Origin: Hysterangium stoloniferum
Taxonomy: Eukaryota; Basidiomycota; Agaricomycetes; Hysterangiales; Hysterangiaceae
DNA length: 64,000 nucleotides
Assembly (NCBI GenBank): GCA_015178975.1
Contig: WHVD01000010.1
Location: forward strand, 620,001 to 684,000
Direction of reading: 5' to 3'
Shown here: positions 2,890-47,081 of the stretch, one piece after another
How the letters are laid out: every line of letters begins with the position of its first letter
Numbering within the stretch: position 1 is the stretch's first letter
Notes under the pieces: model-generated
What the model was told of the DNA's origin: nothing
Seen by the model: the letters and a program-made list of their open reading frames with translations, nothing else
The model's database searches: none
Program-made: the position numbers and the translations under genes

Positions 2890-4606
2890 ACCTCTCTGTG
2901 CATCCATAAGTTCACCCATCTGAATGCATCCACTCTTTTGAACTCTGCCTTGTTATTTGTACAACTCACTTCTGATATGATTAAGGTGTCTGTTTTTTGT
3001 ATGCTTGTAGATTCTGGCTTGATCCATTGTTTTGTAAATATTTAATTCACTCAAAAAACCTTTTGATGACTTACCCAATAAACCTGATTTTGCTTTAGCT
3101 CTTTGATGGTTCAAGCACCTCAGTTATTACCCAAGCTTGTGACCTACCTATTCCCATGCAGAACATCTCAGTCAGTCACCTTCTGTGTGATGCAGCTGGA
3201 CTCAAGTTACTCAGTTGTCCTAGGACACAACTGGCTCATCTGGTAGACTCTGTTGATTGACTGGGTGTCAGGCAGTATCACATTCCAGATGCCCACAGCA
3301 CCAACAAACTGTAGCATCCCTGGCCCTTTTGGCACCCATGGCTTCCACAGCATTTTGGCTTCCACAGACCCTATGGTAATCCCACCTATTTCCCCCATTA
3401 ATGCAGCAGCTTTTATTAGGCTACAAGATTGGATGGATCCCAGGCATTCACAATCAACTTGAAAGTTGATGAAGCAACCAGATGTTTTTTGATTCTGGTA
3501 TCTGAGCCTATCACAGACCTAGAAGGCATCCTAGGAAAATATCATGACTTTGTGGATGTTTTTAGTAACTGACAAGCTGACTGGCTTGCATCCCATAGAC
3601 CATATGACTTAAAAATCAACCTTGAATATGGTGCCAAACCACCCCTTGGACCAATATACCCACTCTCCTCTGTGGAGCTTTCTGCAATCTGAGATTGCCT
3701 GGATAGAGATCTGTCCATGGGATTTATCTGGCCATCAAAGTCTCCTTTTGGAGCACCCATTCTTTTTGTCAAGAAGAAGGATGGATCCCTCAGACTTTGT
3801 GTTGATTTCAGAGGACTCAATGCAGTGACATGGAAAGATAACTATTCATGCCTGCTTATTTCCAACCCACCTGAGACTCTGCAGAATGCCCAGATCTATA
3901 CCAAGATAGACCTCAAATATGCCTAGCACTTGGTCCAGATAGCAAGTGTGATGAGTGGAAAACTATGTTCTATACCCATTACAGGACTTTTGAATGGTTG
4001 GTGATACCCTTCAGCTCACCAATGCCCTTCTGTTTTTCAGTGTTTTGTTGATGACACTTTCTCTGATCTACTCAAGCACCCTGCTCTACATGATGAACAG
4101 ATCTGTGAAGTTCTGGAGACTCTCACAACATGGTCTTTTTGCAAATGGTAAAAAATGTACTTTTGACAGACTCCATGGAGTATCTAGGTTTCAGTATGGG
4201 TCCTGATGGACTCCAGATGGACAAGGCCAAAGTACAGGTCATCAAGGATTAGCCCTAACCCCACAAGGTTAAAGACATTCAGTCTTTCCTCAGGTTTGCC
4301 AATTTTTACTGATGGTTTATCTACAGTTATTCAAAAATAACCATCCCCCTTACTCATCTCACTCAAAAGGAAACTCCATGGGATTTCAATGATAAGTGTC
4401 ACCAGGATTATGATGGTGAAGTTTATGTGGTGGCTTATCTCTCCTGGACTTTCACCAGACCTGAGCTCAATTACAATGTCCATGACAAGGAACATCTTGC
4501 AATATTTGAAGCTTTCAAAGCCTGGTGGTGTTGGAAACCACTAAGCCAATGTTGGCTTAGTGGTTTCCAACAGGTGACACTACTTGAAGGCACAGGAACT
4601 CCAGTT
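2890..4606 (+). pseudogene. pol of chromovirus G1: protease, reverse transcriptase, partial RNase H
   Basis: This is the enzyme part of the decayed element. An aspartic protease motif (LVDSG) lies near 3008, followed by the linker and RT N-terminus. RT blocks include [13 protein letters not shown] and [17 protein letters not shown] (about 3719-3830), then [10 protein letters not shown] (3895-3924). The RT catalytic YLDD block is not intact. RNase H pieces (LSWTFTRPELNYNVHDKEHLAIFEAFKAW) occupy about 4435-4528 and resume after a 44-bp insertion at 4573-4606. Integrase and chromodomain are absent, because the sequence changes at 4608 into LTR-like DNA beginning TGTTAAATTATG. Many stops and frameshifts are present. 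Confidence 0.8.
4529..4572. repeat. 44-bp perfect palindrome inside RNase H, with LTR-like TG..CA ends
   Basis: Two 21-bp arms, starting TGTTGGAAACCACTAAGCCA, form a perfect inverted repeat around a 2-bp centre. It interrupts the RNase H frame of G1. Flanks are GGTGG (4524-4528) and GGTGA (4573-4577), which resemble a 5-bp target duplication with one change. Confidence 0.85.
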
Positions 4607-7221: not shown

Positions 7222-7897
7222 TGTTAAGAAGCATGTGTGGAGCTTACATATCAGAGGGTTTCTGGAGAAACCTGTGGGAAAGCTGGTAGGACTTGGCATC
7301 AGCTTCAGCTTATAGGCTGCACCCTCATGAGATTGTGTCATCCAAATTCAGATGGATGGACAGGAATCCCAGGGAGTCCAGGAGTAGTTGGTGGGTTGTG
7401 AGGTTGGAGGGTCAACTGTGAGAATCCCACAGAAGTCGAGGGGTCGGGTGGAGATGAGTCAGAGGTCGAGTGATAGATAGGTCGAAACCTGTGGGCCCTG
7501 ACAAGGTAAATAGTGGTGTGTTTCAAAGAGGAGATTAGAGCAGAAAATGTACTTGAGATTACTGGGGAGAATCTAAGCTGATTTTCTGACTGGATTGTAT
7601 GTACAACATCTGCCAGACTATATAGACTGTGGAATGTATGTCATACCAAATCCAGTAATAATGAAATCCAAACTAGTAAACATGAAATGAGATAAGTAAA
7701 TACCAAATTTGGTGTTAGGAATGGGATGGAGTGGAGTGGAGTCTGAATTACAACAGGTTGTTAGACCATAATGGGAATGGGGCATGAGCGGAGTCCAAAA
7801 CGTGACAGGTCATTAGACCATAAGGGGAATGGTGTGGGAGTGGAGTCCAAAAAATGACAGGTCATTTAACCATAGCAGGAATGGGGCTCAGTTAGAG
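7222..7897 (-). mobile_element. LTR D, truncated 3' LTR of G1b
   Basis: Plus-strand start TGTTAAGAAGC matches the 5' LTR of G1b at 13425 onwards. In minus sense it holds AGTCAGAAAAT (7581-7591) and, at about 7285-7310, the shared core. Its other end is lost: homology to LTR C/D stops near 7897 and the antisense accessory gene fragment of G1b begins. This implies a deletion across the LTR start, the polypurine tract and the first part of that gene. Confidence 0.7.
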
Positions 7898-8209
7898 GAA
7901 GTGGGTGGACTAGCAGAAAGACCTGGGGCCTTGGAGGAGGTTTTGGGGCAGATAGCTGCAGGCATAGAGGTGCAGAATGAGTTGCTTGAGAAGAGCAACC
8001 AGGTGCAGATAGTTGTGGCCAAAAATATCCAGGGGCTCTGCAAGGAGGTTTGGGCATTTCTGGTGGAGTATGGTGGGTATGTATGCAGAACCACAGATCA
8101 GGAGTTCCAAGGAGTCTCAGATGAGGATGGGGTACCTGAGGAGGTGGAAGAACTCCAAAAGGAGCCTAAAGAAGTTGGGCAGAAACATAGCCCCATAAAT
8201 GTAGACTGA
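7898..8209 (+). pseudogene. Fragment of the antisense accessory gene of G1b (coiled-coil end)
   Basis: An open plus-strand frame, antisense to G1b pol and located between pol and the 3' LTR. It encodes an amphipathic segment (EEVLGQIAAGIEVQNELLEK) followed by an acidic tail (DEDGVPEEVEELQKEPKE). The arrangement of helical segment, then acidic tail, then stop matches the last exon of the gene at 18805-19845. The promoter, exons 1-2 and the zinc cluster are missing here, replaced by truncated LTR D. Similarity is by layout and partial residues only, so the family link is likely but not proven. Confidence 0.55.
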
Positions 8210-8388
8210 CAGTAATAATAATGTTTTTTCTTTAAAAATAAAAGTAAAGCATGAAAAGCATAAAAGTCTGTAGGAAAATCTGCTAGGACTTGAAGACATG
8301 TCAGAAACCTGTAAAAGCAACAAGAGACATAGGGTGACAGGGAAAAATGAAAATGAATCCAATGTAACATGGGGTCCACAGAATGCAG
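8210..8388. other. Spacer between accessory gene fragment and pol stop of G1b
   Basis: AT-rich, without a recognisable frame. It is the counterpart of 19846-19944 in G3. AATAAA-like A-rich runs lie at 8236-8243, plausibly for 3' ends of the convergent pol and accessory transcripts. Confidence 0.4.
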
Positions 8389-11300
8389 TCAGAGAGAGGA
8401 TAGTGGTCTGGGTTTGAGCAGGTAAGCTGTGTGAAAGTCAGTAACAATCTCCATGGCATTACCAAGTTCTGTGGCCAAAATCCATGAAGTCTCTTCATCA
8501 GTGCCCTCATAACCCACCCACTTGACCAAGTAAAGCAGTTTACGAGTGCGTCAGTGCTTATCTATTTTCAAATATAAAATTTGTGAGATTTCAAACTCAG
8601 GTTCTCTGTCAATAATGGCTGCAGGAGGTGGAGATTGTATGTGATCTGGGATAGTGTTAGTGGTACAAGGTTCTAGCATAGAAAGATGAAATACTGGGTG
8701 TACCATGTGCATGCTATCCAGAAGCCATAGGGTCCATGAAACTGAACCTACTTGTGCTATTATTTCAAATGGACCTAAATATTTTTCAGCAAGTTTCTTT
8801 GATGGATGGGTAGTCTGAAAGAATTGAGCTTTGACAAAAATGTGATCACCAATTTTGAAGTTTGGTGGCAGAATCCAGTTTTTGTCCACTGAATGCTGGT
8901 ATTGCTCTTGGGCAGACATTATTGCAGTCCGGAGTTCCTCATGGAGCTTGTGGAGGTCTGTGACAAAACCTTGAGCATGGGCAGAGGTGAGATTTCGTTC
9001 TGGGTGTACTGTAATATTTGGATTGTACCCTTTATTTGCAAAGAACGGGGAAATGCCAGTAGTGGCCAAAGGTGCATTGTTGTAAGCAAATTCTGCAAGT
9101 GGTAACAGGGATTCCCAATTGTCCTGTTGATAGTTGCAATATACATGGAGGTATTGTTCTAATGTCTGATTGACATGCTCAGTTTGTCTATCGCCTTCCA
9201 GGTGATATCTGGACATGAAGTGTAATTTCATGTCCAAGGATTTCCTGAGGGATCTAAAGAAGTTAGAAACAAACTCTGATCCTCAATTGGAAGTTATGTG
9301 GGACAGGACTCTGTGCTTAGAAAATATATTGATAATGAAAAGTTCCACTAACTGCATGGACGTGATGGTATCATGTGTGGGAATGAATATACCTTGTTTT
9401 GAGAATCTGTCAACAATGACTAGAATGGCAGAAAAGCCTTCGGAGTCTGGTAGGTGTTCAATGAAATCCATAGAGATGGAATTCCACAGGTGTTCCGGTA
9501 CTGGGAGTTGTTTCAGAAAGCCATATGGCTTGTAATGCTGTGATTTAGAGTGTGGACAAGTAGTGCAAGATTTACAATAGTGCTTAATGAAGTCTAGGAG
9601 TCCAGGCCAAGTGTATTCTCTTCTTATTAATGATAGAGTTTTGTTGAATCCAAAATGTCTTGAGAGTGGATGGTCATGTTTGTACTGGAGAATCCTGAGG
9701 CAGAGGCTGCCAGAGTCCGGTACATATATGTGATCATCAATACCAATGAAACCATGCTGGTTGAGAGACCACTGGGGTTTACTGGGGTCCACAGGATTGT
9801 CAAGGTGTGCTTTGGGTCTAGTGGAATTGCCAATAGAATATCTTAATGTAACTTCTCAATATCCATAATGATAATTCCATGGATGATGGGATGGATGAGG
9901 AAAGTCACATGGACTGATGCAGTAAGCTGCTGGTTCATGAAAATGGGTTTCAAGTTGTGCGGGTTTACCATGGCATAGTCGTTGCTCCCCTCTTTAGGAT
10001 AGATATCCCATGGTCTAGTTAAAGCATTGGGTTTGCCACCAAGGTGACTGGGTTGAAAGTGGATAATCATATTGAAGGCTGATAGGTATTCAGACCAGTG
10101 GGCCTGCCAGCAGGTCAAACGTTTTGTGGTATAAAAGTATTCCAGGTTCTTATGATCTGTTACAACATCAATCAGAATTCCCAAGCCTTCCAAATAGTGT
10201 TGCCATGTTTTGAAAGCTGAAAAAATTGCTAGGAATTCTTTGTCATGAACATCATAATTGAGCTCTGCTCTGGTGAAAGTCTGGGACAGAAAGGCCATGG
10301 GGTGGACTTCTCCGTCAGAGTCCTGCATAGACAGAATGGCTCCAAGTGCATAGTCCAAGGCATCCATCTCAACAATGAGTGGAAAGTCCAGTTTCCAATG
10401 CAACAGAATTGGAGCTGATGAAAAAGAATCTTTTAAAAGATTGAAAGCTTTTTGACACTTATCATTAAAATTCCATGGAATATCTTGTGCGTAAGATGGG
10501 TAAGGGGAACCATGATTTCAGAATATCCACAGATAAATCATCAGTAAAAATTGGCAAAGCTGAGGAAAGATTGTATATCTTTGATTTTCTAGGTTCCGGC
10601 CAATCTTTGATGACTTGTACTTTGGTTTCATCCATGCAGAGTCTGCTGGGTCCCATTATGAAACCTAGATACTCCACAGAGTCTGTGTCAAAAGTACATG
10701 TTTTACCACTTGCAAATAAACCATGTTGTCTGAGTCTCTGGAGAACTTCACAGACTTGTTTGTCGTGTTCTGTGGGGTCCTCAGAGTAGAAAAGAATGTC
10801 ATCCAAGTAAACAATGACACATACATCAAGCATGTCAGAGAAAATATCATTAATAAAATGTTGAAAAACAGACAGAGCATTGGTAAGTCCAAAGGGCATC
10901 ACCAACCACTCAAAGGCCCCATAATGGGTTCTGAAAGTGGTTTTGCACTCGTCTCTCGTGGAGATCTGGACCAAATGGTAGGCATGTTTAAGGTCTATCT
11001 TGGTATAAATCTGGGCATTCTGTGGAGCATCAAGCAGGTCAGATATAAGTGGGAGTGGATATTTATCCTTTTTTGTGACAGCATTAAGTCCTCTGAAATC
11101 AACACATAGTCTAAGGGATCCATCCTTCTTCTTGACAAACAGAACAGGTGCTCCAAAAGGAGACTTAGAGGGTCTGATAAAACCTATGGATAAATGCTCA
11201 TCCAGGAAATCCTGGATTGCGGAAAGTTCTGTGGACAAAAGCAGGTAAATATGTTTAAGGGGTGGCTGGGCGCCTTCTTTGAGGTTGATTTTTAAGTCAT

Positions 11301-12094
11301 ACTCTCTGTGGGGTGGAAGCCGGTCAGCTTTACACTTACTGAAAACATCTGCAAAATCATGATATTTCTCCAGGACACCATCTAGATCAGTGGTTTGCTC
11401 AGATGTGGATACTGGAGTTGAGAAATGACCAGTTGCTTCATCAATTTTCAAATTGATAGTGAATGCCTGGGATCCATCCATTTTTGTAGCCCTAATAAAT
11501 GCTGCAGCATAGAAATAGATGGAGGTGCCATGGGTTCTGGGGAAGCTATGGGTGCTGTAGGGATCACAGGAGTCCTTGAGACTGCAGGTGCCAGGAAGGC
11601 CATGGGTGCCATGGAGGCCGTGTCAGATACAGTTATCTCAGGTGCTGTGGGTGTCTGGAAAGTTATACTGTTTGCTACCCAGTCAATCAACGGATTGTAG
11701 CAGGTAAGCCAGTTATATCCTAGGACAACTGAGCAACTTGAGTCTAACTGAGTCACATACAGTAGAAAGTGACCAACTGAGATGTTCCACATGGGAACCA
11801 GATGGATAAATCGCAAGCTTGGGTGATAACCAAATTGCTTGTGCCATTGAAGAGTCAGAGTCCAACCAGATTTATTGGATAAGTTGACAACAGATTATTT
11901 TGCATGAATTTTGTATCTAAAAAACAATGAGTCGAGCCAGAATATATGAGTGCTGAAAAAATGAATTTTGGAATCATATTAGACATAAGTTTGATAAAAA
12001 ATGAGTCAGAGTTCAAAAGAGCAGATGCGTTGAGATGAGTAAACTTGTGAATGCATGGAGAGGTAACACAACCCCCAACCCACATGGAGTCCAT
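8389..12094 (-). pseudogene. pol of chromovirus G1b: PR, RT, RNase H, integrase, chromodomain
   Basis: Nearly complete Ty3/gypsy pol in minus sense. The protease active site reads YSG instead of DSG (about 11985). The RT is continuous at 10465-11481, with [26 protein letters not shown] and EYLGFIMG. RNase H spans 9843-10403 ([19 protein letters not shown]). Integrase spans 9283-9792 (H..H then CKSCTTC, MDFIEHLP, VIVDRFSKQ) and 8551-9237 (DRQTEHVNQTLEQYL, PPNFKIGDHIFVKAQ). The C-terminal chromodomain is around 8389-8610 (LLYLVKWVGYEGTDEETSW). Five or so frameshifts or stops break it. CpG is almost absent, which marks it as old. Confidence 0.88.
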
Positions 12095-12216
12095 GGGGTT
12101 GCTTACTCATTTTTCAAGTCGGAAGCTGGTTTGTCCTTCAATGGGGATTCTGTGGAGGAAGTCTTGGCTGTTCAACCTTTTGCAGAGTTTGCTTTCACCA
12201 ACAGACATTCTGGAAC

Positions 12217-12355
12217 TCAATGACTGGGTTTTCCACACAAGAGACAAAGGCTATTGTCCATACAACATCGTCTTTCTTGTGGGGTCAATTTGCCATTGGG
12301 TCCAAGCTTGCCTGTAAGGTCAGGTTTTCCAGTTTGCTTGCTGTACTGTTGACCT

Positions 12356-12408
<53 letters not shown>

Positions 12409-13391
12409 GGAAGACTTTTTATCATTCTTCTGATTGGATTGCATGGAGTTTTGGTTGCTAGTGGATGAAGCATTGTTGTTGGTTTTATTGGCCATGGACT
12501 TGTTGACCTTGTCTATGGAGGTCTCATGGGCAACTTCCACATGATGTTCCCAATAGCGTGCATCTGCGTTTTGAGCCTTGAGGCACATATGGGACAGTGT
12601 TTTTGGCTTGCCATCTTCTCCTTTTGAGACTTCATCTTTAAGGTGGGATGGCAGACTGGCATAGAATTGGTGGCAGAGAGCAGGATCACCCCACTGACAA
12701 TGAGCTGCAAGGTTATTCAATATAGTCCATGATGCACTGGGTGTCCTTCATATGAAGATTAGTGAGACTATTCTCAGCTTCTCTGGTCAGGTCATATGAG
12801 CCAAAGTTGGTTTCTAGCTCCATAACAAAAGCATCCCAATCTTTGAGCCAAAGTGGCTCTTCCTCAGAAAGTCTGCTAAAAGCTGGTTCAAACCATTTCA
12901 ACACAGATCCTGAGAGGTATGAGAGTGTATAATTGACTTTTAGGAGTTCATGGAGAATGTGGCAGATCAATCACAGAAATTGAAGTGACATTGCATGAGG
13001 AAAGTGGAAAGTTTGTTGGGGTTGGAACCTGTAAAGGGTTCTAGAGCATTGACTTTTGACTGCAGAGGTTCCGGATCCTTCTTGCTGCCTTCTCTGAGCA
13101 TGTGGTTCATCAATCTCTCTAAAGTGATTGCTAACAACTCAGAGGTGGATCTACAAGTGGTGGTCGATCATTAGACAGAGAATCTTTGACACCTTTGCCC
13201 TTGTCAGGGGCCATGGGCTCATCCTTGTTCTCTGATTCATCTGGATTTTCTGGGACTTCTTTGATATGGGCTTCTTCCGTGGCATCTGGCTGGTTTGTGA
13301 GTGTCTGGCTGGTATACAAAGTAAGTGGGGAATGAAGAGTCGACGGTCCAGGTAATGATTCCTGTATGTGTGCTTTTCTTCTTGGTGGCAT
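12217..13391 (-). pseudogene. gag of chromovirus G1b
   Basis: Starts MPPRRKAHIQES at 13391 and ends with a zinc knuckle (CLLCGKPSH...C) near 12225. The N-terminal region is Pro/Ser/Thr- and acid-rich (13131-13391), the capsid core is at 12520-12970 (YLSGSVLKWFEPAFSRL, YASLPSHLKDEV), then an Asn/Ser-rich linker with a pure poly-Asn run. Two interruptions (about 13130-12970 and 12713-12720) break the frame. It shares family features with G1 gag at 540-2879. Gag and pol probably were separate or frameshifted frames, but decay hides the junction. Confidence 0.85.
12358..12409. repeat. (GTT)n microsatellite in gag, encoding poly-Asn
   Basis: About 17 uninterrupted GTT units on the plus strand, read as AAC (Asn) codons on the gag strand. 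It expanded inside the low-complexity linker before the zinc knuckle. The equivalent place in the plus-strand G1 gag has only about five AAC units. Confidence 0.9.
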
Positions 13392-13704: not shown

Positions 13705-14445
13705 TGTTAAGTGCCGTGTTGGGAACTTATTCCAGAACTATTGGAAAGTCACTGGGAAGTCAGGAACTATTGGATAGGGTCAGGACGTCGGCTTCAGCTT
13801 ATATGCTGCGCCTCTACACAAACGCTCAAAGTCCTTAATTTCAGAAGTGAGACTTACAATGGAAGATACAGATATTCAGAGTTTTGAAGAGTTCCGAATA
13901 TTGAGCGTACAGAAAGACAGAAGAAGGAATAAGAAACTAAGTTGATATCAGATCTAAGGTAAAGTACAAATTTGTGGAAACTAATATAAGTCTTCTCGTT
14001 ATTGTACTACAAACTGAGACCTGTTATGTATTTCTAAGTTTTTTCCAATTTTTAAACAATTTCCCCTAACAAATTGTGAAAACAAATATTCAAATGTAAT
14101 TGTATTGTGACAATTAAATTGTACAATATTTGTTTGATTTATCTTGAATTTATACAATTTATTTTGTATTTCTATCTAATAAATTGAGCAAGTAATTGAA
14201 TTTCTACTTTTTATTCTTTTTTGATTAATATGTTGGCGACTCAGCGCTTATTCACAACGCGCAAGTAATCATGTGACATTCACATGATATTTCAAACTCC
14301 GACGCCGACAAAAAGCGATGCGAAATTATCGCGCATAATCAAGGTAATATATATATTTATATTATTATAATAAAATATTATATTTATAACTAACTAAAAA
14401 TAAATATAATAATTATAATAATATAAAGATGGCCACGTGTGTTTA

Positions 14446-16040
14446 CAGTGACCCAAAAAAGCGTCCGGATGTTTGGTGAAATTGGAAAGATGGGTTTGCA
14501 GCTCTAGAAATAAAATAGATAAAATTCTGAATAAATAAAAGGTAAGAGGTATACATCTGACCTACATGATGACATAAGCATGACATCATAGCTTTCCTTA
14601 TCAGGGAAGTAGGAACTGAACAATGGACATGGTGCATCCGGACATTTTTTTTTGCTCTGTCAACTGATACATGAAACTCAATAAGGTTCATATAACTGTG
14701 GGAATTTCTGGTTAGGTTCAACAATGTCATGTGACCACATGTTTAAATAACACATTTACATGAACCTTTGCCTCAATTCACCCCCCCACCACATGATGAA
14801 GAAGCACTCTACTGAAACAAGGCCCTCTGTCATTTCTCTTCTCCAGGAAGGTCACTCCTGCAGAACAATTGCTTCTAAACTTCATATTGGGCACTCTACA
14901 GTATCAGAAATTCGCTCCCAACTCCCTGGTCCACTTCCAACACCTTCCAGAGGTTGTCCTCCCAAACTCTCCCCCAGGGATCATCACCACCTGGCTCGTT
15001 CTATCACCTCTGGACAGGTTGATAATGCCTCCCAAGCCAAGTCCCACCTCTCCCTCAATGTCTGCACACAGACAATTAGAAATGCATTGAAGAAAGAGAA
15101 TTTGAAGGCTGTGGTGAAGGCCAAAAGACCTCTTCTTGCCTGTCAACACATCAAGGCTCGATATGAGTTTGCTATCAAGTACCAGCATTGGACTGAGGAG
15201 GACTGGTTTAGGGTTATCTTCTCAGATGAGACCAAAATCAATCGTTTGGGCTCTGATGGGAGGTTGTGGGTATGGAAAAGACCAGGTTCTGCACTCACTC
15301 AGCAGCATATCAATGGAACTATCAAATTTGGAGGGGGGAGTCTAATGATTTGGGGATGTATGACAGCACATGGTGTGGGGTACATGTGCAAGATAGATGG
15401 GAGGATGGATGGGGAGATGTACAAGGACATATTGGAGGACTATATCTTCAAAACAGTGGAGTATTATGGGATGGACAGGGAAAGGTTTGTCTTCCAGCAG
15501 GACAATGACCCTAAACACACTTGCAAGTTGGCCAAGGATTGGTTCAAGGACCATCAGGTGGAGGTTTTAGACTGGCCTGCACAGTCTCCAGACCTGAATC
15601 CAATAGAACACTTATGGTGGGAGTTGAAGAGAAGGCTTGGAACATACCCTGAGGCACCCAAGAGCATATTGGAGCTCTGGGAGAGAGTGGAGGTGGAATG
15701 GGAGGGTATTCCAAGGGAGAAATGCCTTGAATTGATCAAGAGCATGCCTAGAAGGGTTGCTGCAGTACTAAAGGCCAAGGGGGGGTACACTAAATACTGA
15801 AACTGGTAAAAACTAGTAATTAATTACAAGAGCAAAAAAAGTGTCCGGATGCACCATGTCCATTATTAATTTCCTACTTTCCTGATAAGGAAAGTTATGA
15901 TGTCATGCTTATGTCATCATGTAGGTCAGATGTATACCTCTTACCTCTGATTTATTCAGAATTTTATCTATTTTATTTCTGGAGCTGTAAACCCATCTTT
16001 CCAATTTCACCAAACATCCGGACGCTTTTTTGGGTCACTG
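14446..16040 (+). mobile_element. Tc1/mariner transposon (1595 bp), TA target duplication
   Basis: A complete DNA transposon with terminal inverted repeats of about 210 bp (14446-14667 and about 15828-16040). The ends are CAGTGACCCAAAAAAGCG, with TA at 14444-14445 and 16041-16042. One intact gene lies between the repeats. The repeats carry two similar sites each (AAGCGTCCGGATGT near the tip, AATGTCCGGATGCA near the inner end), facing opposite ways. The reading frame is undamaged, so insertion is recent compared with the surrounding retrotransposons. Confidence 0.92.
14760..15800 (+). CDS. Tc1/mariner transposase, DD34E, intact
   Basis: A 346-residue cut-and-paste transposase that would bind the terminal repeats and excise and insert the element at TA sites. 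Two N-terminal helix-turn-helix regions are visible (about residues 17-55, RPSVISLLQEGHSCRTIASK; and about 67-110, including GCPPKLSPRDHHHLARSI). The catalytic triad is Asp156 (FSDETKINR), Asp248 (FQQDNDPKHT) and Glu283 (LNPIEHLWWELKRRL), with 34 residues between the last two. The length matches the family (about 340). Met12 or Met13 is an alternative start. No stops or frameshifts occur. It is the only clearly intact transposase in the window. Confidence 0.93.
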   Translation: MNLCLNSPPHHMMKKHSTETRPSVISLLQEGHSCRTIASKLHIGHSTVSEIRSQLPGPLPTPSRGCPPKLSPRDHHHLARSITSGQVDNASQAKSHLSLNVCTQTIRNALKKENLKAVVKAKRPLLACQHIKARYEFAIKYQHWTEEDWFRVIFSDETKINRLGSDGRLWVWKRPGSALTQQHINGTIKFGGGSLMIWGCMTAHGVGYMCKIDGRMDGEMYKDILEDYIFKTVEYYGMDRERFVFQQDNDPKHTCKLAKDWFKDHQVEVLDWPAQSPDLNPIEHLWWELKRRLGTYPEAPKSILELWERVEVEWEGIPREKCLELIKSMPRRVAAVLKAKGGYTKY

Positions 16041-16080
16041 TATTATACGGCACGTGGGAAACTCCTCACAACGAATGACA

Positions 16081-17450: not shown

Positions 17451-18170
17451 TGTTAAGAACTGGAAACTGACTAATATCGGTGGCCGACAGGGACCGATCG
17501 GAAGGACTTGGCTTCAGCTTATGTGCTGCGCCCTCGCAAATATCCGTAGGATGTCCTTAAATTTCGGGCGGGCGAAGACTAATCCTAGTGAGTACCTTTC
17601 GGCGTGATACCGATCAGAATCGAAGGACAAGTCGAGCGTTGGGCCAAGGGGTCGGGGCCGGGAGTGGGCGAGCGCACGCGAAGGCGGATGGGGGGATTCT
17701 TAGTATGAGACTGATACAGGTGTATGAGGGTATTCTGAGTCGATATTCTGATTGCCTAGTAACTACAATTACAGCGGGTTCATATACAAGTAACAGGCGT
17801 CTGGAAAATACTAATGGGGAGAAGGGCGGAACACGGTTTTAACAATAAGCTTGACTAGGAACGGGAAGTTTATGATTAGTTCGGAGGCCGATGATAACCG
17901 AGAGCGGGATTACGGTAAAAGGAAATGGTTCGAGGACTACAAATATAGATAGACATATGCGAAACATAAGATTGAACGGATCAACATAATAAAGGGGACG
18001 TATCAAAGTTTGACCAGACAATACGAGTTATTTGATGTGGGCGTAAATGGAGTTTGATCTTCGCGAAACATTCGTCAGCTTTGGGGCCAATGGTTTCCGA
18101 GAGGATGACTTGAAACGTTGACAAGTGGCGATAACCTCGGGGCCGATAGGGTTGCGACACGGTCGTAACA
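17451..18170 (-). mobile_element. Solo LTR A (720 bp), target duplication GGTTC
   Basis: Starts TGTTAAGAACTGG and ends CGGTCGTAACA. GGTTC is at 17446-17450 and 18171-18175. CpG-rich and almost identical to the inverted copy at 35424-36146, so it is young. The shared core is at about 17506-17533. It is nested in insertion F. Confidence 0.92.
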
Positions 18171-18548: not shown

Positions 18549-18564
18549 GTACCCCCCTGTTAGG
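18549..18564 (-). promoter_or_regulatory. Polypurine tract of G3
   Basis: In minus sense CCTAACAGGGGGGTAC directly precedes the 3' LTR start (TGTTACAACC). Equivalent tracts lie at about 22007, 43901 and 58466. Its position shows that the antisense gene to the right is inside the retrotransposon. Confidence 0.75.
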
Positions 18565-18676
18565 CTGAAGCCCCATAGAGGCGATTAGGTACTGAGTGAT
18601 TGAAGCGATGGCTGATTATTATGTGTCGTGAAATTTACGCAATTCTGGAGGTGAGAGTTTCGGCTGTTGTTCTGAG

Positions 18677-18684
18677 TATAAAAA
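18677..18684 (+). promoter_or_regulatory. TATA box of the antisense accessory gene (G3)
   Basis: TATAAAAA in a conserved setting about 128 bp before the ATG. The same box in the same place occurs at 22137, 44030 and 58594, while intervening sequence varies. It would drive transcription opposite to gag-pol. Confidence 0.65.
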
Positions 18685-18804
18685 CCTCCAAATATTCGAA
18701 TTAATGTTTTTGTTTCTTTATTCACAACTTGCATGTTGATTCATCGGCCATTATTCACCACTACCCCGGAAGATTCAGATACTGGAATTGCCATACTTCA
18801 AAAA

Positions 18805-19845
18805 ATGTCGAAGGTTGCAGAACTTCAACAAAAACGACAAAGGATGGAGGAGTTGAAGTGACAACAGGAGGAGGAAAAGGTGTTGATGCAGGAGTTGAAA
18901 GAGGCAGAAGAGGCGGAAAAATGGGAGTTGGAGTGAGTGAAGGCAGAAAAAGAAGTGTGGATCCGGAAAATGGTGGAGGCTCAGAAAAAGAAGGAAGAGG
19001 CGGAAAAACTTAAGGAGATAAGGGAAGGAAAGGTAAGTTCGATCCATAAATTTTTCCATGGTTCCAACCAATAACTATTGGGTACAGCGAAAAGCCGTGG
19101 AGGTGGAGGTAGAGGGAGAGACTGGACCTTCGAGTCCTAAAGTAAGTGCATCTACAAAAGGTCGGTATTTGATTAACTTTTGAAACAGAAGCCAAAGGTC
19201 AAGGCTCTGGAACGGATGGAAGTCATCCATGACAATCCGTGTTATCGATGTTCCATACAGAATATGACGTGTTGGAAACAGAAGGTAAAATGGGGTGGAA
19301 CTTGCTATCCCTGCGTGGTTCTTAAACTTCGGTGCACTCTTGCCTCAAAAAGGGTTCCAAAAGGTGAGAAGGCTCAGAAAACTAACGATGCGGAAAGTTC
19401 AGGAGCGGCCAAAGCTGCAGAAACTGAGGTGCCAAAAATGGATAGTACGGGCATTGAGCTCCTCAAGGACACCATTGACGCGTTGGTCTTTATTGGGACA
19501 GAAGTCATGAAAATGCAGGATACACTAGATTGCCATAATGAGATCCAGGAAAAGGGTTTCCATTCGTTGATCCGGAATTTCCAGAGGCAAAATGAATTTC
19601 TGGAGAAGATAATGGTTAGCATCGGTGTTATCGCAGTATCCGAGAGATTTTCTGATAAGGCATGGGAACAGCCTAATGATCCGTTGGCGGAATGTGTCGA
19701 AAAAAGGTGGGAGTCAGGAAATGGGCCAGAAGTATCAGAGAGTGAGGATGAAGAGGTGCAGGATATGGTGGAAAGTGTGGAGGTTGCTGATGAGACGGGA
19801 GACGGGATGGAAAGTGGATTTGGGGTATCAAAGACTCTAAGATAG
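18805..19845 (+). CDS. Antisense three-exon gene in G3: coiled coil plus Zn(II)2Cys6 protein
   Basis: Exons 18805-19032, 19088-19141 and 19189-19845; introns of 55 and 47 bp, both GTAAGT..CAG. Exon lengths 228, 54 and 657 keep one frame of 312 residues plus stop. Exon 1 is a Glu/Lys-rich coiled coil. Exon 3 holds C-x2-C-x6-C-x10-C-x2-C-x6-C (first Cys codon 19240, last 19333), the spacing of the fungal binuclear zinc cluster, with Lys/Arg between. A second helical segment and an acidic C-terminus follow. Exon 1 has two in-frame TGA codons (18859, 18934), so this copy is probably dead or exon 1 is read otherwise. The gene lies between pol and the polypurine tract, on the opposite strand. I infer DNA binding, perhaps element regulation. 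No function is proven. Confidence 0.75.
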
Positions 19846-19944: not shown

Positions 19945-21797
19945 TTAGAGTGATGATAAAGGTCCGGGTTTGCTTGGATAAGCTGTGTGGAAGTCAGTAA
20001 CAATTTCCATAGTGTGTCCAAGTTCCGTGGCTAATATCCATGAAGTTTCCTCGTCGGTACCTTCATAACCTGCCCATTTGACTAAATAGAGCAATTTACA
20101 AGTATGTCGGCGATTGTCAATTTTAGAATCCAAAATTTCAGAAACTTCAAATTCGGGTTCTCCGTCAATGATGACCGAAGGGGACAGAGGTTGAATACGT
20201 TCCGGGTTTTTGTTAGGAACACAGGGTTCTAACATGGAAATGTGGAAAATGGGGTGAACTGCTCGCATACTATCGGGAAGTTGGAGAGTCCATGAGAGTG
20301 AACCGGCTTGTGCTATAATTTCAAATGGGCCTAAGAATTTCTCAGCGAGTTTTTTAGAAGGTTGGGTGGTGCGGAATAATTGAGCTTTTACAAAAACCTG
20401 ACCTCTAATTTTAAAATTAGGAGGAGGATCCTGTTTTTGTCCACGGAACATTGGTAATATTCCTGTGTGGAAGAAATAGCTTTCCGAAGTTCTTGATGTA
20501 ATTCGTCGAGGTCGGTAATAAATTCTTGAGCACGGACAGAAGCCAAATCTCGTTCAGAATGTACAGTGAGATTCGGATTATAGCCTTTGTTGGTGAAAAA
20601 AGGAGATATGCCAGTAGTTGCATTCGGAGAGTTATTGTAGGTGAATTCCGCGATCGGAAGAAGGGACTTCCAGTTGTCCTGTTGATAATTGCAATAGATG
20701 CAGAGATATTGTTCCAATGTTTGATTTACACGTTCCGTTTGTCCATCACCTTCCGGGTGATATCCCGAGGTGAAGTGTAGTTTCATGTTGAGGGCTTTTC
20801 CGAGGGCCTGGAAGAAATGGGAGACAAACTTGGAACCTCGATCGGAAGTTATGTGAGACGGAACTCCGTGTTTGGAAAATACATGAATAATGAAAAGTTC
20901 CGCTAATTGTAAGGATGTGATTGTATCATGGGTGGGTATGAAAATGCCTTGTTTTGAGAATCAATCCACAACAACTAGAATGGATGTAAAGCCTTCAGAC
21001 GTCAGAAGTTGTTCGATAAAATCCATGGAAATTGAGTTCCAGGGATTTTCCAGTATCAGAAGTTGCTTGAGAAGGCCATATGGCTTATGCCTCTGGGTTT
21101 TAGAGCGTAAGCAGGTGGTGCATGACTTACAGAACTGGGTTACGAAATCTCGGAGGTTGGGCCAAGTGTATTCTCTATGGATTAAACCAAGAGTATTGTT
21201 AATGCTGTAATGTCCGGAGATTAGATGATCGTGTTTATACTGAAGTATGCAGAGTCAGAGATTGTTGGAATCTGGAACGTAGATACATCCATCAAGACGG
21301 ATAAAACCTTGAGAGTCTTGTGACCATCGGGGTTGGTCAGGATTGTCAGGAACTTCTAGATGTGGCTTGAGAGCCGGATTGGAAGTGAGTGCAGAAAGGA
21401 TATCTTGATGTAATTGCTCAATGTCCATAATCATGACGCTACGCATAATTGGATAGTAGAGGGAAGTCACTCGAATAGATGCAGAAAGTTGTTGCATTGT
21501 AAAAACTGGTTTCAAGTTATGCGGATTAACAATGGCATAGTTACTTTCTCCCTCTTTAGGATAGACGTCCCATCATCGAGTCATGGCATCTGGTTTTCCA
21601 CCAAGATGTCTGGGTCGGAAATGGATAATCATGTTGAAAGTGGAAAGGAATTCGGACCAGCGGGCTTGCCAGTGGGTTAAAAGTTTAGTGGTAGAAAAAT
21701 ATTCGAGATTTTTGTGATCGGTAACAATGTCAATGGGAGTTGTGGAACCTTCAAGATAATGGTGCCAATGTTTGAAAGCTTCAAAAATTGCCACTGG
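19945..21797 (-). pseudogene. pol C-terminal half of G3: RNase H end, integrase, chromodomain
   Basis: In minus sense it starts within RNase H ([28 protein letters not shown]). It then has the integrase zinc region (CKSCTTC), the core with VVD followed by a stop where related copies read VVDRFSKQ or VVDQFS, and DGQTERVNQTLEQYL. The C-terminus has FKIRGQVFVKAQLF and a chromodomain (LLYLVKWAGYEGTDEETSW), ending PGPLSSL. Chromodomains of this class bind methylated histone H3 and steer insertion to heterochromatin, which fits the nesting here. There are few stops compared with G1b. The missing N-terminal half is at 44092-47050. Confidence 0.85.
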
Positions 21798-22006
21798 TAA
21801 TTGTACTACAAATTAAGATCACAATAAGACAGATTAGGATGGAAGTTCCAAATCAGGAACACAATAAGCAAATGAATGAATACTTGCTGATAAGTTACTA
21901 AATAATATAGAACAAGGATGAAGTTCAAAATGGCTGGGGATTGATAGTATTCTGGAGGTGGGGGGTTATATCAGAATATTGAAATATCTGGGAATGGATT
22001 GTAACA
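21796..22006 (-). mobile_element. LTR E' fragment, 3' LTR remnant of element G6
   Basis: This is the last part (plus sense) of a diverged type E LTR ending GGATTGTAACA, followed by a polypurine tract (minus sense CTTAATGGGGGTGC). It abuts G3 RNase H at the left. The same DNA recurs at 43694-43900, so the pair forms direct repeats around the 22-kb block. Confidence 0.7.
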
Positions 22007-22136
22007 GCACCCCCATTAAGGCTGAAGTCCCATAGAGGTGATTAGGTACAAAGCATTGAGCTGTTGGTAATCCATTGTGTGTTGTACATAGGAACACATG
22101 TCTGGAGGTAAATAGTTTTGGAGGCTGGGTCCTGGG

Positions 22137-22144
22137 TATAAAAA
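22137..22144 (+). promoter_or_regulatory. TATA box of the G6 antisense gene
   Basis: TATAAAAA with the same neighbours as 44030 (GGTCCTGGG before, TCCCAAAA after). Confidence 0.55.
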
Positions 22145-22853
22145 TCCCAAAAAAATTCAAATTAGCAATTTTCTTTCTTGTTCCTGACTTGCATGTCAAC
22201 TCATCTTCCTCTCTTTACCAAAACTCCCAAAACTTCTGATGCCAAAACTCCCTAAATGTTGAAGGTAGAAGAACTTAAACTGAAATGACAGAAGTGGAGG
22301 AATTAAGGTGCAAGCAGGAAGAGGAGGTGAAGGAGTTGATGCATGAGTTGCAGGAGGTGGAAGATGCAGAATTTCAGGAAAAAGAACAGGTTGAGTGGAA
22401 TGGAAGGAGGCAATTCAGAGGTCAGCAGAAGAGTGGAGGTTGTGGGAAGAGAGGGAGAAGAACCAGAGAGAGGAGGAGGATAAACAGTTGGAGGAAAGGT
22501 GGGATGGGAAAGTGAGTGATGATCTATCAATTTTCTGTTCAATATCCCATTTATCATGAATTAGTGAAAAGTGGTTAAAATGGAAGAGGAAGAAGAGGCT
22601 GGGTCTTTGAGTCCAATGGCAAGTTATTTGTTCAAAGTCCAGAATTTATGTCTCACATCTGAAACAGAAACAAAAGTCATAGTTCTGGAATGAATGGATG
22701 AAATAAATGAAGTTCCATGCAAATGGTGCAAGGATTGGAGAATCAGAGAATCAAATGCAGAAAATAGAAGGCTAAATGGGGTGCCTCTTGTTACCCTTGG
22801 GTGGTTAACAAAGTTCTGTGTATGCTTGCTGGAAAACTGGTTTTGAAGAATGG

Positions 22854-24246
22854 TGTTAAGAACTAGAAACTGACTAATGTCGGTGGACCGACGGGGACCG
22901 ATCGGAAGGACTTGGCTTCAGCTTATGTGCTGCGCCCTCGCAGTTGTCCATCAGGTGTCCTTAAATTTCGGGCGGGCGAAGACTAGTCCCAACGAATACC
23001 ACTCAGTAAAAACTACCGATCGGAACTGAGGGATGAGTCGAGTGTCGGGCCAAGGGGTCGGGGACCGAAGGGGGGCGAGTGCACGTAAAGGTGGAAGACG
23101 GAATTCTTAGTATGAGACTTCTGGAGGTGTAAGAGGGTATTCTGAGTTGATATTCTGATTGCCTGGTAACTACAACTACAGTGGGTTCATATACAAGTGT
23201 GAGGAGTATGCTTTTACCACAGTATCATTGTGGTAAAACACTCCTTTTATTTCATTTATATTTTACATATTCTATTCATATTTTTCTATCTTTCATATTC
23301 TTCGAATATTGATATTTCATTAGTTTGAAGCATTGTGTATACTTGTGGGTGCACTCAGCACCAATTAGAACTCAGACAACTTTTACCCAGCAGACACCAC
23401 CTCGTAAACGACCCAGATGTCGAATAGCGAGAGGTGTCAAGGGTAATGTTTCAACTACCCTTAAAGGTAGTATTCTCTTGCATACTAATGTACTTTGGAC
23501 TCGAACCGCGAAGGTCGAGTTCCAATCTAAGGTCTTTGCGCTAGTCGACATTATAGTCGACTCGCGCTATTATTTCTTTACTCTAGATATTCAGCTTCGC
23601 GTTGATTATCTATTCTACATCTAGCTACGAGTTGTACCGTGAAGGTCAACTCTTTCATTCATTCATTCTAGCCGTCAAGAGCAACTGTACAGTTGCTCTT
23701 GTGACGCATAGCGTGTCTTCTTACTAGCACAGCTTGTCTGGTAATCTACGGTATTGTACTGTACGGTCAATATCTGCTAATAGTAGTTGAATAGACACTA
23801 TTCTTCGTATATCGAACGGTCAGAATCTATCGACTCTTCACAACAAGTAACAGGCATCTAGGAAATACTAACTAGGAGAAGAGTGGAACATGGTATTGAC
23901 AAATAAACTTGACTAGGAACAGGAAGTTTATGATTAGTTCGGAGGCCGATGATAACTGAGAGCGGAATTATGGTAAAAGGAAATAGTTTGAGGGTTACAG
24001 ATATATATAGACATATGTGAAACATAGGATAGAGCGGATCATCATAATGAAGGGGATGTATCAGAGTTTAACCAGATAGTTCGAGTATTTTTGATGTGGG
24101 CGTAAACGGGGTTTGATCACCGTGAAAGCATATGTCAGCTTCAGGAGGCTGATGGTTTCCAATGTGGTAACTTGAACAGTAACTTGAAATTGTCGATAGG
24201 TGGCGATAACCTCGGGGACCGATAGGGTTGCAACACGGTCGTAACA
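22854..24246 (-). mobile_element. Solo LTR A with nested LTR B2, target duplication AATGG
   Basis: Starts TGTTAAGAACTAG, ends GGTCGTAACA, with AATGG at 22849-22853 and 24247-24251. It is about 743 bp after removing the insertion at 23198-23842. It has more CpG-to-TpG changes than the copy at 17451, so it is older. It sits in exon 3 of the G6 antisense gene. Confidence 0.9.
23198..23842 (+). mobile_element. Solo LTR B2 (645 bp), target duplication ACAAG
   Basis: Starts TGTGAGGAGTATGC and ends CGACTCTTCACA. ACAAG is at 23193-23197 and 23843-23847. It is a diverged relative, in opposite orientation, of LTR B at 34768-35410 and 49715-50985 (shared CTTGTGGGTGCA and TTAGAACTCAGAC). Confidence 0.9.
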
Positions 24247-24378
24247 AATGGCAAGAAACTGGGTAAGACAGGTAAGGTGGAAAAAATAGAGAAAATGGAA
24301 GTTGTGGGACCATTGGAAAATGGTGGGACTTTGGAACTCAACCTAGTACAAGGGAGTTGTGTGATTGCTGTGATGAGA

Positions 24379-25526
24379 TGTTAAGTGCTTTGTTGGGAAC
24401 CTATTCCAGAACTATCGGGAAGTGACTGGAAACTCAGAAACTTCCAAATAGGGTCAGGATGTCAGCTTCAGCTTATGTGCTGCACCTCTACACAAACACT
24501 CAAGTCCTTCATTTCAGAGATGGGAAAGTTATGCCAGAGGGTATGGATATTCAGAGTTCTGAAGAGTTCTGAATATTGAGTGTACAGAGAGAAGGAAGGA
24601 ATAAGAAACTAAGTCGATATCAGATCTAATGTAAAGTACAAATTCACAGAAACTAATATAAGTTTTTTTGTTATTGTACTACAAACTAAGATCACAATAA
24701 GACAGAATTGGAAGTATTCTGAAATGGGAATACAATAAGTAAACAAGTTGTTATGACCCATGCTTGGAAGTTCACATAACCTCTGAACCACTGACACTGC
24801 CGCTCATTCTCAGACATCCATCAGATACTGGATTTCCTTTTTGGGTCATTTCCTTATGTCCTGATTAGTATGCCCTGTATGTCTGAATATGTTATACCTT
24901 TCATCCTAGTTTGTATTCTCTGAGTATTGGAAACCTGTATATGTTGTATTCCCGATTTAGTTATGCTCTTGTTCTACTTTAGGTACTTTCCTTGTCTCCT
25001 CATTAGTACTGTGAGATGCCGGAAATCCATATATATACCAAACTGTAAAGTAGTTACAGAGCAATCAGAATATCGACTTAGTTACTCTACTAGTTCTTTG
25101 CTCTTCTCTCAGACCTCCAATCTTCCCTCTATCTCTCTCTACCCCCCTTACCAACCCAGGGATCTGACAGTTTGTCTACTGTTTGGATTCCTGATAGGTA
25201 AGTTCTCACATGTTTGAAATTTAAGGACAACTGACAGTAACTTTGTGAGGGCACAGCACACAAGCTGAAGCCACATCCTTCCATTTGGACCCTGTCAGAC
25301 TTCTGACTTTACAGCACGCAACTTAACACAAGTGAATACTTGTCAGTTGACAAGTTACCAAATGGGGAACAAAGGTGAGATCTGGAAGTATCAAAACTAT
25401 GAATATTCTGTAGTCTGAAGTCAGAATTGGATATTGAGGTGGGAAGTTGGATTGGAGACTTGGGGTGGAGGTCAGAATGTTTCAGATGGTATCAGATATT
25501 GAGTTGTCTGGAAATGGGTCATGGCA
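24379..25526 (-). mobile_element. Solo LTR E with nested LTR J, target duplication TGAGA
   Basis: Starts TGTTAAGTGCT and ends GGGTCATGGCA (decayed from GGGTCGTAACA). TGAGA is at 24374-24378 and 25527-25531. It is about 563 bp after removing LTR J. The shared core is at about 24462-24488. It is inserted in exon 3 of the G6 antisense gene. Confidence 0.85.
24749..25328 (+). mobile_element. Solo LTR J (580 bp), target duplication CAAGT
   Basis: Starts TGTTATGACCC and ends CAACTTAACA. CAAGT is at 24744-24748 and 25329-25333. A TATATATACC box (about 25031) precedes AATCAGAATATCGAC by about 33 bp. The shared core, one base changed (GCACACAAGCTGAAGCC), is at about 25256-25272. Confidence 0.88.
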
Positions 25527-25912
25527 TGAGAATGTAAATGCCATGCTCCAAATTGCCATGGAACTGGCAAAAGTCCAGAAAGTCCTGGAACTCAATAACC
25601 AGATCCAGGTTAAGGGGTTTAGGATGATGAATCAACACTTACAAGGGTAGAACAAAATCTTGGAGGAGGTAATGGTCAGTATTGGTGTCATAGCAGTAAC
25701 TAAAAAATGTGCATGGGAGGAGCTGGGAGGAGAAGGTTCCAGGTCAGAAAATGGTGTCATCATGGAACTTGAGAACAGGATGGAGCTTCAGAGGAAGCTG
25801 GAAAATAATGATGAGGTTTAGGAGAAAATGGGAGTAGATGCAGGGGAGCCGAAATTTGGAGAAGTGGAAATGTTGAAGGAAATGTAACATGATTTTAATA
25901 ATTTTGACTTGC

Positions 25913-28399: not shown

Positions 28400-28910
28400 C
28401 ACTCAGAATATACTGTATGGGCCTTGAGGACATGTGTTAAATTAGGAAGAAGGGATATGGTGTGGATGCACTGAGAAGCCTGGAAAATGTGATGAACAGC
28501 CTCAGAAAAGAGTATGTTAGCATAGAAATAGAGGGGGTGGGTTGAACTCACTGGGGACCACTGGATCACAAGGTGATAGCCTTGAGAATGTGTGTGTTAG
28601 ATTAAGGAGAAGGGATACAGTCCGGATGCACTGAGAAATCTGGAAAATGTGATGACAGCCTCAGAAAATAGTATGTTAGCATAGAAAACAGAGAAGGTGG
28701 GTTGAACTCACTGGGGACCACTGGAACAAGATGTGATGGCTTTGAGACATGTTTTTCAGATTAAAAAGAAGGGATATGGTTTGGAGGCACTGAGAAACCT
28801 GGAAAACATGATGACAGCCTCAGAAAAGAGTATGTTAGCATAGAAAACAGAGGGGACAGGTTGAACTTACTGGGGACCACTGGAACACAAGGTGATGACC
28901 TTGAGAACAC
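28400..28910. repeat. Three tandem copies of a ~160-bp unit
   Basis: The phrase CACTGAGAA..CTGGAAAA recurs at 28467, 28628 and 28787, and the surrounding sequence (AGCCTCAGAAAA, GTATGTTAGCATAGAAA, CTCACTGGGGACCACTGGA) repeats with the same spacing. Copies are about 85-90% alike by eye. No coding role is seen. Confidence 0.8.
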
Positions 28911-33720: not shown

Positions 33721-33989
33721 ATTTCCCACACCCCTCAACAACACATTTCCCACAGCCCTGCCAGATGAATTTCCTGTGCCCCTCATAGACACTGTTCCCA
33801 CAGCTCTGCTGGAAGAATTTCCCCTGCTGTTAAGGGGTGTACATGGAGGGTTTCCAGAGAAACCTGCAGGAAATCCAGTAGGACTTGGCTTCAGCTTATA
33901 GGCTGCACCCTTGCAAGATCATGTTGTCCAATTTCAAATGGGCAGACAGGAATCCCAGGGAGTCCGGGTGGAGTTTGTCAGTTGAGGGG

Positions 33990-34370
33990 TTGTCGGTCAA
34001 GAGGTTGTGGATTGAAAGGTTGTGGATTGAGAGGTTGTGAATTGAGAGGTTGTGGATTGAGAGGTTGTGGATTGAGAGGTCATGGATTGAGAGGTTGTGG
34101 ATTGAGAGGTTGTGGATTGAGAGGTTGTGGATTGAGAGGTTGTGGATTGAGAGGTTGTGGATTGAGAGGTTGTGGATTGAGAGGTTGTGGATTGAGAGGT
34201 TGTGGATTGAGAGGTTGTGGATTGAGAGGTTGTGGATTGAGAGGTTGTGGATTGAGAGGTTGTGGATTGAGAGGTTGTGGATTGAGAGGTTGTGGATTGA
34301 GAGGTTGTGGATTGAGAGGTTGTGGATTGAGAGATTGTGGATTGAGAGGTTGTGGATTGAGAGGTCAGGG
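33990..34370. repeat. 15-bp minisatellite expanded inside LTR C
   Basis: About 25 head-to-tail copies of GAGGTTGTGGATTGA. Most are identical. Other LTR C copies have only a few irregular versions of the unit (for example around 33080-33120), so the array grew in this copy. The long frames it creates on both strands (Arg-Gly-Cys-Gly-Leu, Trp-Ile-Glu-Arg-Leu, Ser-Gln-Ser-Thr-Thr) are artefacts of the 15-bp period. Confidence 0.95.
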
Positions 34371-34767
34371 AGTCGAGATAAATAAGTTGGAGGTTGAGAG
34401 ATAGATGCATTGGAGCCTGTGGGCTCTGACTAGCAAGAGCAGTGTAATTCAAGGAGGAGTTTAGAGTGGAAAATGTACTAGATTACTAGGGAGAATCTAA
34501 GCTGATTTTCTGACTGGATTTTATGTACAACATCTGCCAGACTATATAGACCGTGGAATGAATAACATACCAAATCCAGTAATAATGAAAATGAAACTAG
34601 CAAACATAAAACGAGATAAGTAAACACCAAATTTGGTGTTAGGAACAGAACGGGATGGAGCAGAGTCTGAATCGTGACAGGTCATAAACCATAATGGGAA
34701 ATGGAGTGGGAGCAGAGTCTGAATCATGACAGGTCATGGGACTAAAATGGGAAAGGGGCTCAGTTAG

Positions 34768-35423: not shown

Positions 35424-36146
35424 TGTTACGACCGTGTCGCAACCCTATCGGCCCCGAGGTTATCGCCACTTGTCAACGTTTCAAGTCATCCTCTCGGAAA
35501 CCATCGGCCCCGAAGCTGACGAATGTTTCGCGAAGATCAAACTCCATTTACGCCCACGTCAAATAACTTGTATTGTCTGGTCAAACTTTGATACGTCCCC
35601 TTTATTATGTTGATCCGTTCAATCTTATGTTTCGCATATGTCTATCTATATTTGTAGTCCTCGAACCATTTCCTTTTACCGTAATCCCACTCTCGGTTAT
35701 CATCGGCCTCCGAACTAATCATAAACTTCCCGTTCCTAGTCAAGCTTATTGTTAAAACCGTGTTCCGCCCTTCTCCCCATTAGTATTTTCCAGACGCCTG
35801 TTACTTGTATATGAACCCGCTGTAATTGTAGTTACTAGGCAATCAGAATATCGACTCAGAATACCCTCATACACCTGTATCAGTCTCATACTAAGAATCC
35901 CCCCATCCGCCTTCGCGTGCGCTCGCCCACTCCCGGCCCCGACCCCTTGGCCCGACGCTCGACTTGTCCTTCGATTCCGATCGGTATCACGCCGAAAGGT
36001 ACTCACTAGGATTAGTCTTCGCCCGCCCGAAATTTAAGGACACCACCCCACGGATATTTGCGAGGGCGCAGCACATAAGCTGAAGCCAAGTCCTTCCGAT
36101 CGGTCCCTGTCGGCCACCGACATTAGTCAGTTTCCAGTTCTTAACA
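35424..36146 (+). mobile_element. Solo LTR A (723 bp), target duplication GATGA
   Basis: Starts TGTTACGACCGTG and ends CCAGTTCTTAACA. GATGA is at 35419-35423 and 36147-36151. It is almost identical to the inverted copy at 17451-18170; one 60-codon chance frame is the same in both. TATATGAAC lies 33 bp before AATCAGAATATC, a likely RNA start. The shared core is at 36067-36093. Confidence 0.92.
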
Positions 36147-47068: not shown

Positions 47069-47079
47069 AGATCTGATAT
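47069..47079 (-). promoter_or_regulatory. Putative self-priming primer-binding site of G3
   Basis: In minus sense, two bases (GT) after the 5' LTR, ATATCAGATCT is the exact reverse complement of AGATCTGATAT in LTR E (minus strand 13944-13954). In the adjoining 5' LTR that site has one change (47322-47332). Confidence 0.62.
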
Positions 47080-47081
47080 AC

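Follow-up and report, generated by a model that had tools for sequence, protein, structure and literature searches.

Hysterangium stoloniferum, a fungus whose genome is reported in PMC7550596, is host to a family of chromodomain Ty3/gypsy elements (chromoviruses) that carry an accessory gene of three exons antisense to pol, and comparison of the copies indicates that this gene is real, protein-coding, intron-bearing and under selection. The copy studied here occupies positions 18677–19845 on the plus strand of the 64,000 nucleotide stretch of DNA that was analysed (the window), opposite to pol and in the interval from the pol stop to the 3' LTR. The initial annotation knew of no such gene in fungal chromoviruses; an antisense accessory gene is in fact already known in one of them (see below), but the type of protein and the exon structure found here are apparently new.

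The element and its genomic copies

The pol gene of the studied element lies on the minus strand and stops at 19945, and its C-terminal end (19945–20451) encodes a Tf2-1-like SH3 domain (PF24626, E 7e-18) and a chromodomain (PF00385, E 1.2e-06), convergent with the antisense gene; the element is thus a chromovirus, as it had first been called. The chromodomain is found in the element itself, and the reverse transcriptase and RNase H of the LTR-element type are seen in a related element in the window (9843–11481; PF00078, PF17917 and PF17919), whose pol is 72% identical in DNA sequence to that of the studied element over 1.85 kb. The 3' LTR edge of the studied element is placed at about 18548 by analogy with a second element of the same family in the window.

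A search of the genome (111 Mb in 554 contigs) with exon 3 gave 892 candidates, of which the best 150 were scored; these are 72–100% identical in protein sequence, and 109 of the 150, counted from the match table, have no stop codon. For a copy alignment, matches were collected in 98 sequences (97 loci, many of them overlapping, and the window), and 61 rows were kept, namely the window and 60 unique copies of full span, with those that were partial or interrupted excluded. The copies were drawn from the top of two ranked lists together with 20 from the lower end of the exon 3 list (18 of which are full-span), and so are not a random sample. A convergent chromodomain accompanies 54 of the 60 copies, mostly 37–88 bp from the end of the aligned segment. 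Genome-wide, the gene has 892 candidates and the chromodomain 3,194, of which the best 150 of each were scored, as two separate lists. On the other side of the gene, a match reaching the LTR edge is present in 55 of the 60 fetched copies, upstream of the gene and at a near-constant distance from it. The gene has a fixed position in the element.

Gene structure and start codon

The TATA box, the three exons and the two GTAAGT..CAG introns of the initial annotation all stand. The TATA box (TATAAAAA, 18677–18684, plus strand) precedes the likely start codon by 56 bp, a spacing that is the same in the window copy, in copy 2 and in copy 3 of a diverged family, and 18672–18690 is the most conserved of 114 segments of 19 nt tested in the 5' flank (mean conservation 0.98). 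A bacterial-type promoter scan, a method not meant for fungi, gave results at chance level. Exon 1 (18733–19032) is followed by intron 1 (19033–19087; 55 bp, phase 0), exon 2 (19088–19141; 18 codons), intron 2 (19142–19188; 47 bp, phase 0) and exon 3 (19189–19845), which is open in the window copy and ends in a TAG stop codon at 19845. GT..AG ends are kept at intron 1 in 57 of the 61 aligned copies, at intron 2 in 59 and at both in 56, window included. The splice-site and TATA columns are almost invariant, both in an alignment of 43 of these copies and in the conservation test of the columns, and the interior columns of intron 1 are conserved at 0.86 versus 0.98–0.99 for the splice-site columns. 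In the exons 23 of 42 indel blocks have a length divisible by three, versus 4 of 31 in the introns and 5' flank.

The initial annotation began the protein at the ATG at 18805, which reads as methionine in 60 of the 61 copies, but the reading frame extends a further 24 codons upstream to an ATG at 18733. The latter is also present in 60 of the 61 aligned copies, and the frame between the two is kept in 59 copies, two of which have a stop in it. Informative sites in this extension number 7, 7 and 17 at the three codon positions (24 sites each), a bias towards third positions. The frame is non-coding upstream of 18733, with stops in all 53 copies that stay in frame and no codon bias (informative sites 12, 9 and 12 of 44); one frame of 18600–18800 gives a dN/dS of 0.28, in part because it enters the coding extension. 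The true start is thus probably the ATG at 18733, which gives 336 codons for the window model, and the predicted product is 334–347 amino acids long in seven open copies. An open frame across exons 1 to 3, the absence of which the initial annotation had named as a sign of a dead gene, is present in 8 of the 61 copies from the ATG at 18805 to the stop, and seven of these are open from 18733 as well. The other 53 copies are broken somewhere, and the window copy is itself a pseudogene with two in-frame TGA codons in exon 1.

Selection on the protein

Over the exons from the ATG at 18805 the pooled pairwise dN/dS across copies, a measurement proposed along with the initial annotation, is 0.22 (0.223; median 0.227), far below 1, with pooled values of 0.13 for exon 2 and 0.225 for exon 3. 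Four of the five other reading frames gave 1.05, 0.90, 0.97 and 1.11. The fifth, the antisense frame with shift 2, gave 0.31, a low value that we ascribe to wobble positions shared with the sense frame, and we do not regard it as a second gene. For single exons and for the cysteine cluster alone the other frames spread more widely, from 0.59 to 1.40, the fifth frame excepted. With the start at 18733, dN/dS is 0.40 in the 44 pairs with dS below 0.15 and 0.21 in the 929 pairs with dS above 0.45, a fall with increasing dS that fits the pattern expected of selection in active lineages and decay or drift after insertion; a codon bootstrap on 20 random copies gave 0.17–0.26. For the C-terminus of pol, in 28 sequences, the median dN/dS is 0.305 and the pooled value 0.63, which is inflated because frameshifted or badly aligned rows were kept; by the medians, the antisense gene is conserved about as well as the end of pol. 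Selection on pol cannot account for the low dN/dS of the gene, since the two do not overlap in the window. These substitution patterns indicate that strong purifying selection acts on the antisense protein.

The predicted protein

The product begins with an N-terminus that is short and conserved, followed by a stretch rich in E, K, R and Q. Exon 3 then encodes a six-cysteine cluster and, after a linker, a helical part that leads to an acidic tail. The exon 1 stretch is 63–66% E/K/R/Q in the seven open copies, charged and helix-like. It had been read as a coiled coil, but a heptad excess above shuffled sequences at the 5% level was found in only one of five copies, and the test gives no support in the other four. 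For the C-terminal helical part (approximately 19438–19668, from two AlphaFold2 models) the shuffle fraction in five copies is 0.10–0.35, which is suggestive only. The last 45 residues carry a net charge of −11 to −14.

The cluster (19240–19335) has in the window exactly the reported spacing C-x2-C-x6-C-x10-C-x2-C-x6-C. The spacing falls within the signature of Zn(II)2Cys6 domains, CX2CX6CX5-12CX2CX6-8C; this general pattern did not occur in any of 200,000 shuffles of one exon 3 protein. The six cysteine columns are 93–100% conserved in 42 open exon 3 sequences, versus a mean of 86%, and the exact spacing is kept in 35 of the 41 open exon 3 copies besides the window and in 43 of the 61 aligned rows when broken rows are counted. 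The initial annotation called the product a Zn(II)2Cys6 protein outright, and of this only the spacing is established here. The Pfam family of the fungal Zn(II)2Cys6 transcription factors, PF00172, is not listed by Pfam for the window product or for its relative P0002 (see below), and in four other copies it gave a single match (E = 2.1; 8.9 bits versus a cut-off of 21); across Pfam and NCBIfam the gene product has no match near any cut-off. Sequence searches of the PDB gave no match with alignment A1 and three chance-level matches with alignment A4, none of them of the Zn2Cys6 type. Confidence of the AlphaFold2 models is low at the cluster: in model 1 its pLDDT is about 43–51, with one helix at residues 84–160 (block pLDDT 73–90 over residues 91–160), and in model 2, made on P0002, it is 46–61, with weak strands and not the expected short helices, and helices at 96–127 and 134–165. 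Classical Zn2Cys6 domains have basic residues between the second and third cysteines and a loop proline, and the studied product differs from the fungal factors in having neither. We therefore describe the cluster as Zn2Cys6-like in spacing, without placing it as a member of the family, its fold being unconfirmed by Pfam, the PDB and AlphaFold2.

When the window exon 3 was compared alone with the protein database, none of 107 candidates was scored. The exon 3 profile search suggested earlier, run with the 42-sequence alignment A1, retrieved two annotated H. stoloniferum proteins (one of them P0001) and a single outside relative, P0002, and alignment A2 retrieved the same three. P0002 comes from another source, a 7,663-base contig, is 36–43% identical to five members of the family, and retains all six cysteines with the exact spacing. 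Directly before the region homologous to exon 3 its sequence reads ...FSQ, which would be compatible with a CAG acceptor at the corresponding position. In a comparison of P0002 with viral contigs, 11 stretches fitted a pattern and none was confirmed.

Comparison with known antisense genes

The gene closest in kind is brtn of Botrytis cinerea, reportedly described by Zhao et al. in 2011 and carried in antisense orientation by Boty-like chromoviruses. Papers that cite that work describe brtn as an antisense gene of a fungal chromovirus (PMC7264820, PMC8365987, PMC4227169), located between pol and the 3' LTR according to a review (PMC7264820), in an element with gag, RT, IN and chromo domains (PMC4227169), and PMC5987419, which mentions the gene too, reports a Monilinia transcript similar to BRTN. 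By these descriptions Boty resembles the studied element in being a fungal chromodomain element with an extra gene antisense to gag-pol, and differs in that its host is an ascomycete; our protein-database searches returned no protein named BRTN. In the portions of the literature searched, with brtn judged from the citing papers, we found neither a spliced antisense gene nor an antisense protein with a zinc cluster described for a fungal chromovirus. One paper (PMC2864245) notes, in the legend to a figure of fungal elements, a further ORF without known function, and the word "antisense" is absent from the searched text of PMC3248453.

The initial annotation likened the position of the gene to that of the antisense ORFs of the plant elements Grande and Retand, and this comparison is supported. 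Maize Grande gene23, as reviewed in PMC7264820, is antisense between pol and the 3' LTR, has its own promoter, is transcribed and encodes a nuclear protein; Grande differs from the studied element in being a plant element, and transcription of its antisense gene has been shown. The antisense ORFs of Retand (ORF4/TRP28) encode a PF04195 domain, in place of the six-cysteine cluster found here, and belong to an element outside the chromovirus lineage; DNA binding has been proposed for the TRP28 protein, and the word "intron" does not occur in the main text of that paper (PMC11963269). The same paper mentions HBZ. HBZ and the protein studied here are unrelated, and the analogy is functional only. 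HBZ, a leucine zipper protein of HTLV-1, is expressed in antisense from the 3' side of its retroelement and acts as a nuclear regulator.

Possible function

We consider it reasonably probable that the gene encodes an accessory nuclear protein which has its own promoter and a spliced mRNA and acts on element DNA, at the LTR, to tune transcription or aid the integration complex. The conserved TATA-ATG unit and the introns suggest such a promoter and mRNA. The introns would be read as splice signals on the antisense transcript alone and be kept in the genomic RNA; since the latter has no usable splice signals for an antisense gene, an intron-bearing gene could survive retrotransposition, which suggests as a general principle that such a gene can ride in a retroelement if it is antisense. 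The protein would fold a two-zinc cluster, its C-terminal helical part may mediate pairing, and it would enter the nucleus and bind DNA, most likely the element's own LTR, where it might tune transcription or help the integration complex, roles of a kind proposed for antisense proteins of other retroelements. A bolder and more tentative version, which we hold to be less likely than not, is that the gene encodes a spliced antisense zinc-cluster regulator of Agaricomycete chromoviruses that reads CGG(G)AA arrays in their own LTRs; the elements would then carry their own transcription circuit, with introns kept only through the antisense position of the gene, and the family would be old enough to be common to different fungi.

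CGG triplets are typical targets of Zn2Cys6 proteins. The LTRs contain 9.5 CGG(G)AA sites per 562 nt, about twice the density in coding parts of the same elements (gene 5.4, pol end 4.9), and three solo LTRs from another family have 3–5 sites each. The observed/expected ratio of CGG/CCG in the LTR is 1.79, compared with 1.46 for pol and 1.28 for the gene (60 LTR, 25 pol and 60 gene sequences), and in the region between LTR and gene these triplets are fewer than expected (1.97 versus 2.90). As support for LTR binding the CGG(G)AA motif is weak, because it was chosen after looking, like all of the LTR motif work, and because the CGG/CCG excess is present in pol and the gene too.

A selected accessory factor could instead serve, with the chromodomain, in integration targeting or in nuclear import of the integration complex, and not in transcription. 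In 54 of 60 copies a chromodomain integrase lies next to the gene, the product combines a cluster with a helical part and an acidic tail, and the Grande GENE23 protein is nuclear, with roles like those of retroviral accessory proteins suggested for it in the review (PMC7264820); the separate promoter unit suggests expression independent of gag-pol, however, and we regard a role confined to integration as rather unlikely. We rate still lower the reading that the protein works against host defences, such as RNAi or silencing by methylation, and does not bind LTR DNA. Some retroelement accessory genes do counter silencing, and the poorly conserved LTR columns are often CG, CA or TG (by eye, in 60 fetched sequences and the second window element), as might be expected of decay driven by methylation, but the product has no similarity to a known suppressor in Pfam and NCBIfam.

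Two further readings deny the protein a role altogether. The antisense transcript might itself be functional, as a regulatory RNA or dsRNA, with the frame incidental: antisense promoters that give non-coding RNA occur in retroelements (according to the review PMC7264820) and convergent genes could yield dsRNA. The low dN/dS in this frame (0.22), the bias among codon positions, the indels that keep the frame and the conserved cysteines already largely refute this; an RNA could act in addition to the protein, not in its place, and we give the RNA-only reading very little credence. The last reading takes the frame for an ORF that arose by chance or died long ago, or for an artefact of assembly, as the stops in the window copy and the many broken copies might suggest; open copies, purifying selection and the outside relative P0002 speak against it, the open, selected copies refute it, and we assign it a negligible likelihood. 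With at least 150 genomic copies, open copies among them, and clear selection, the role of the gene is directly testable, and a six-cysteine cluster with spacing of the DNA-binding type provides a biochemical handle on antisense accessory genes of LTR retrotransposons, the roles of which are described as still undetermined (PMC7264820).

Other copies and repeats in the window

A second copy of the antisense gene, first given as 58722–61125, is present at 58594–61125 on the plus strand, but has stops in exon 1 and is interrupted by a solo LTR (59423–60146), flanked by CACTG on both sides, and by another repeat at about 60373–60984. The 3' LTR of this second element of the family (57909–58465, minus strand; TG..CA, about 557 bp) is an 86% match to 47079–47627. 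By eye, it contains at 58240–58310 two related palindrome-like stretches of the TATTC..GGAATA type about 40 bp apart. A third copy had been placed at 22256–25890 with the same layout; it extends over 22137–25890 (plus strand) and does have the 56 bp spacing between TATA (22137) and ATG (22193), but is diverged (69% identical at the DNA level across a 282 bp stretch of the start region), decayed and interrupted by large insertions. It has relatives elsewhere in the genome. The promoter-only copy noted at 43901–44091 is confirmed as the promoter side of a gene of the copy 3 type, 43692–44091 on the plus strand being 92% identical to 21795–22198.

The supposed fourth copy, a tail at 7898–8209, is not supported. 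The ORF there (7829–8209, plus strand) was rejected as a tail of the studied gene, having no detectable homology to exon 3; it is a different antisense ORF in the same position, beside a chromovirus with pol at about 8387–12720. It has 1,907 candidate matches in the genome, of which the best 150 were scored, several near contig ends, and at least two of its relatives are convergent with chromodomains (C513:244192–244677 with 244887–245177, and C23:2631–3116 with 3331–3645). Antisense genes may thus be general in the chromoviruses of this genome.

The window also holds repeats of other kinds. The solo LTR in the second copy is one of three of about 724 bp, all of another family, the others being at 17451–18170 and 35424–36146. 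A Tc1/mariner-type DNA transposon occupies 14444–16042, with an open frame for a 346-amino-acid DDE transposase (14760–15800) and 209 bp inverted repeats that are 95% complementary. Tandem repeats of 54 bp at 38361–38806 lie within an open frame of 358 amino acids that has weak, below-cut-off repeat and collagen-like matches, a tandem array with a 60 bp period is found at 33971–34371, and a 157-nt unit is present in three tandem copies, spaced 159–160, at 28431–28906.
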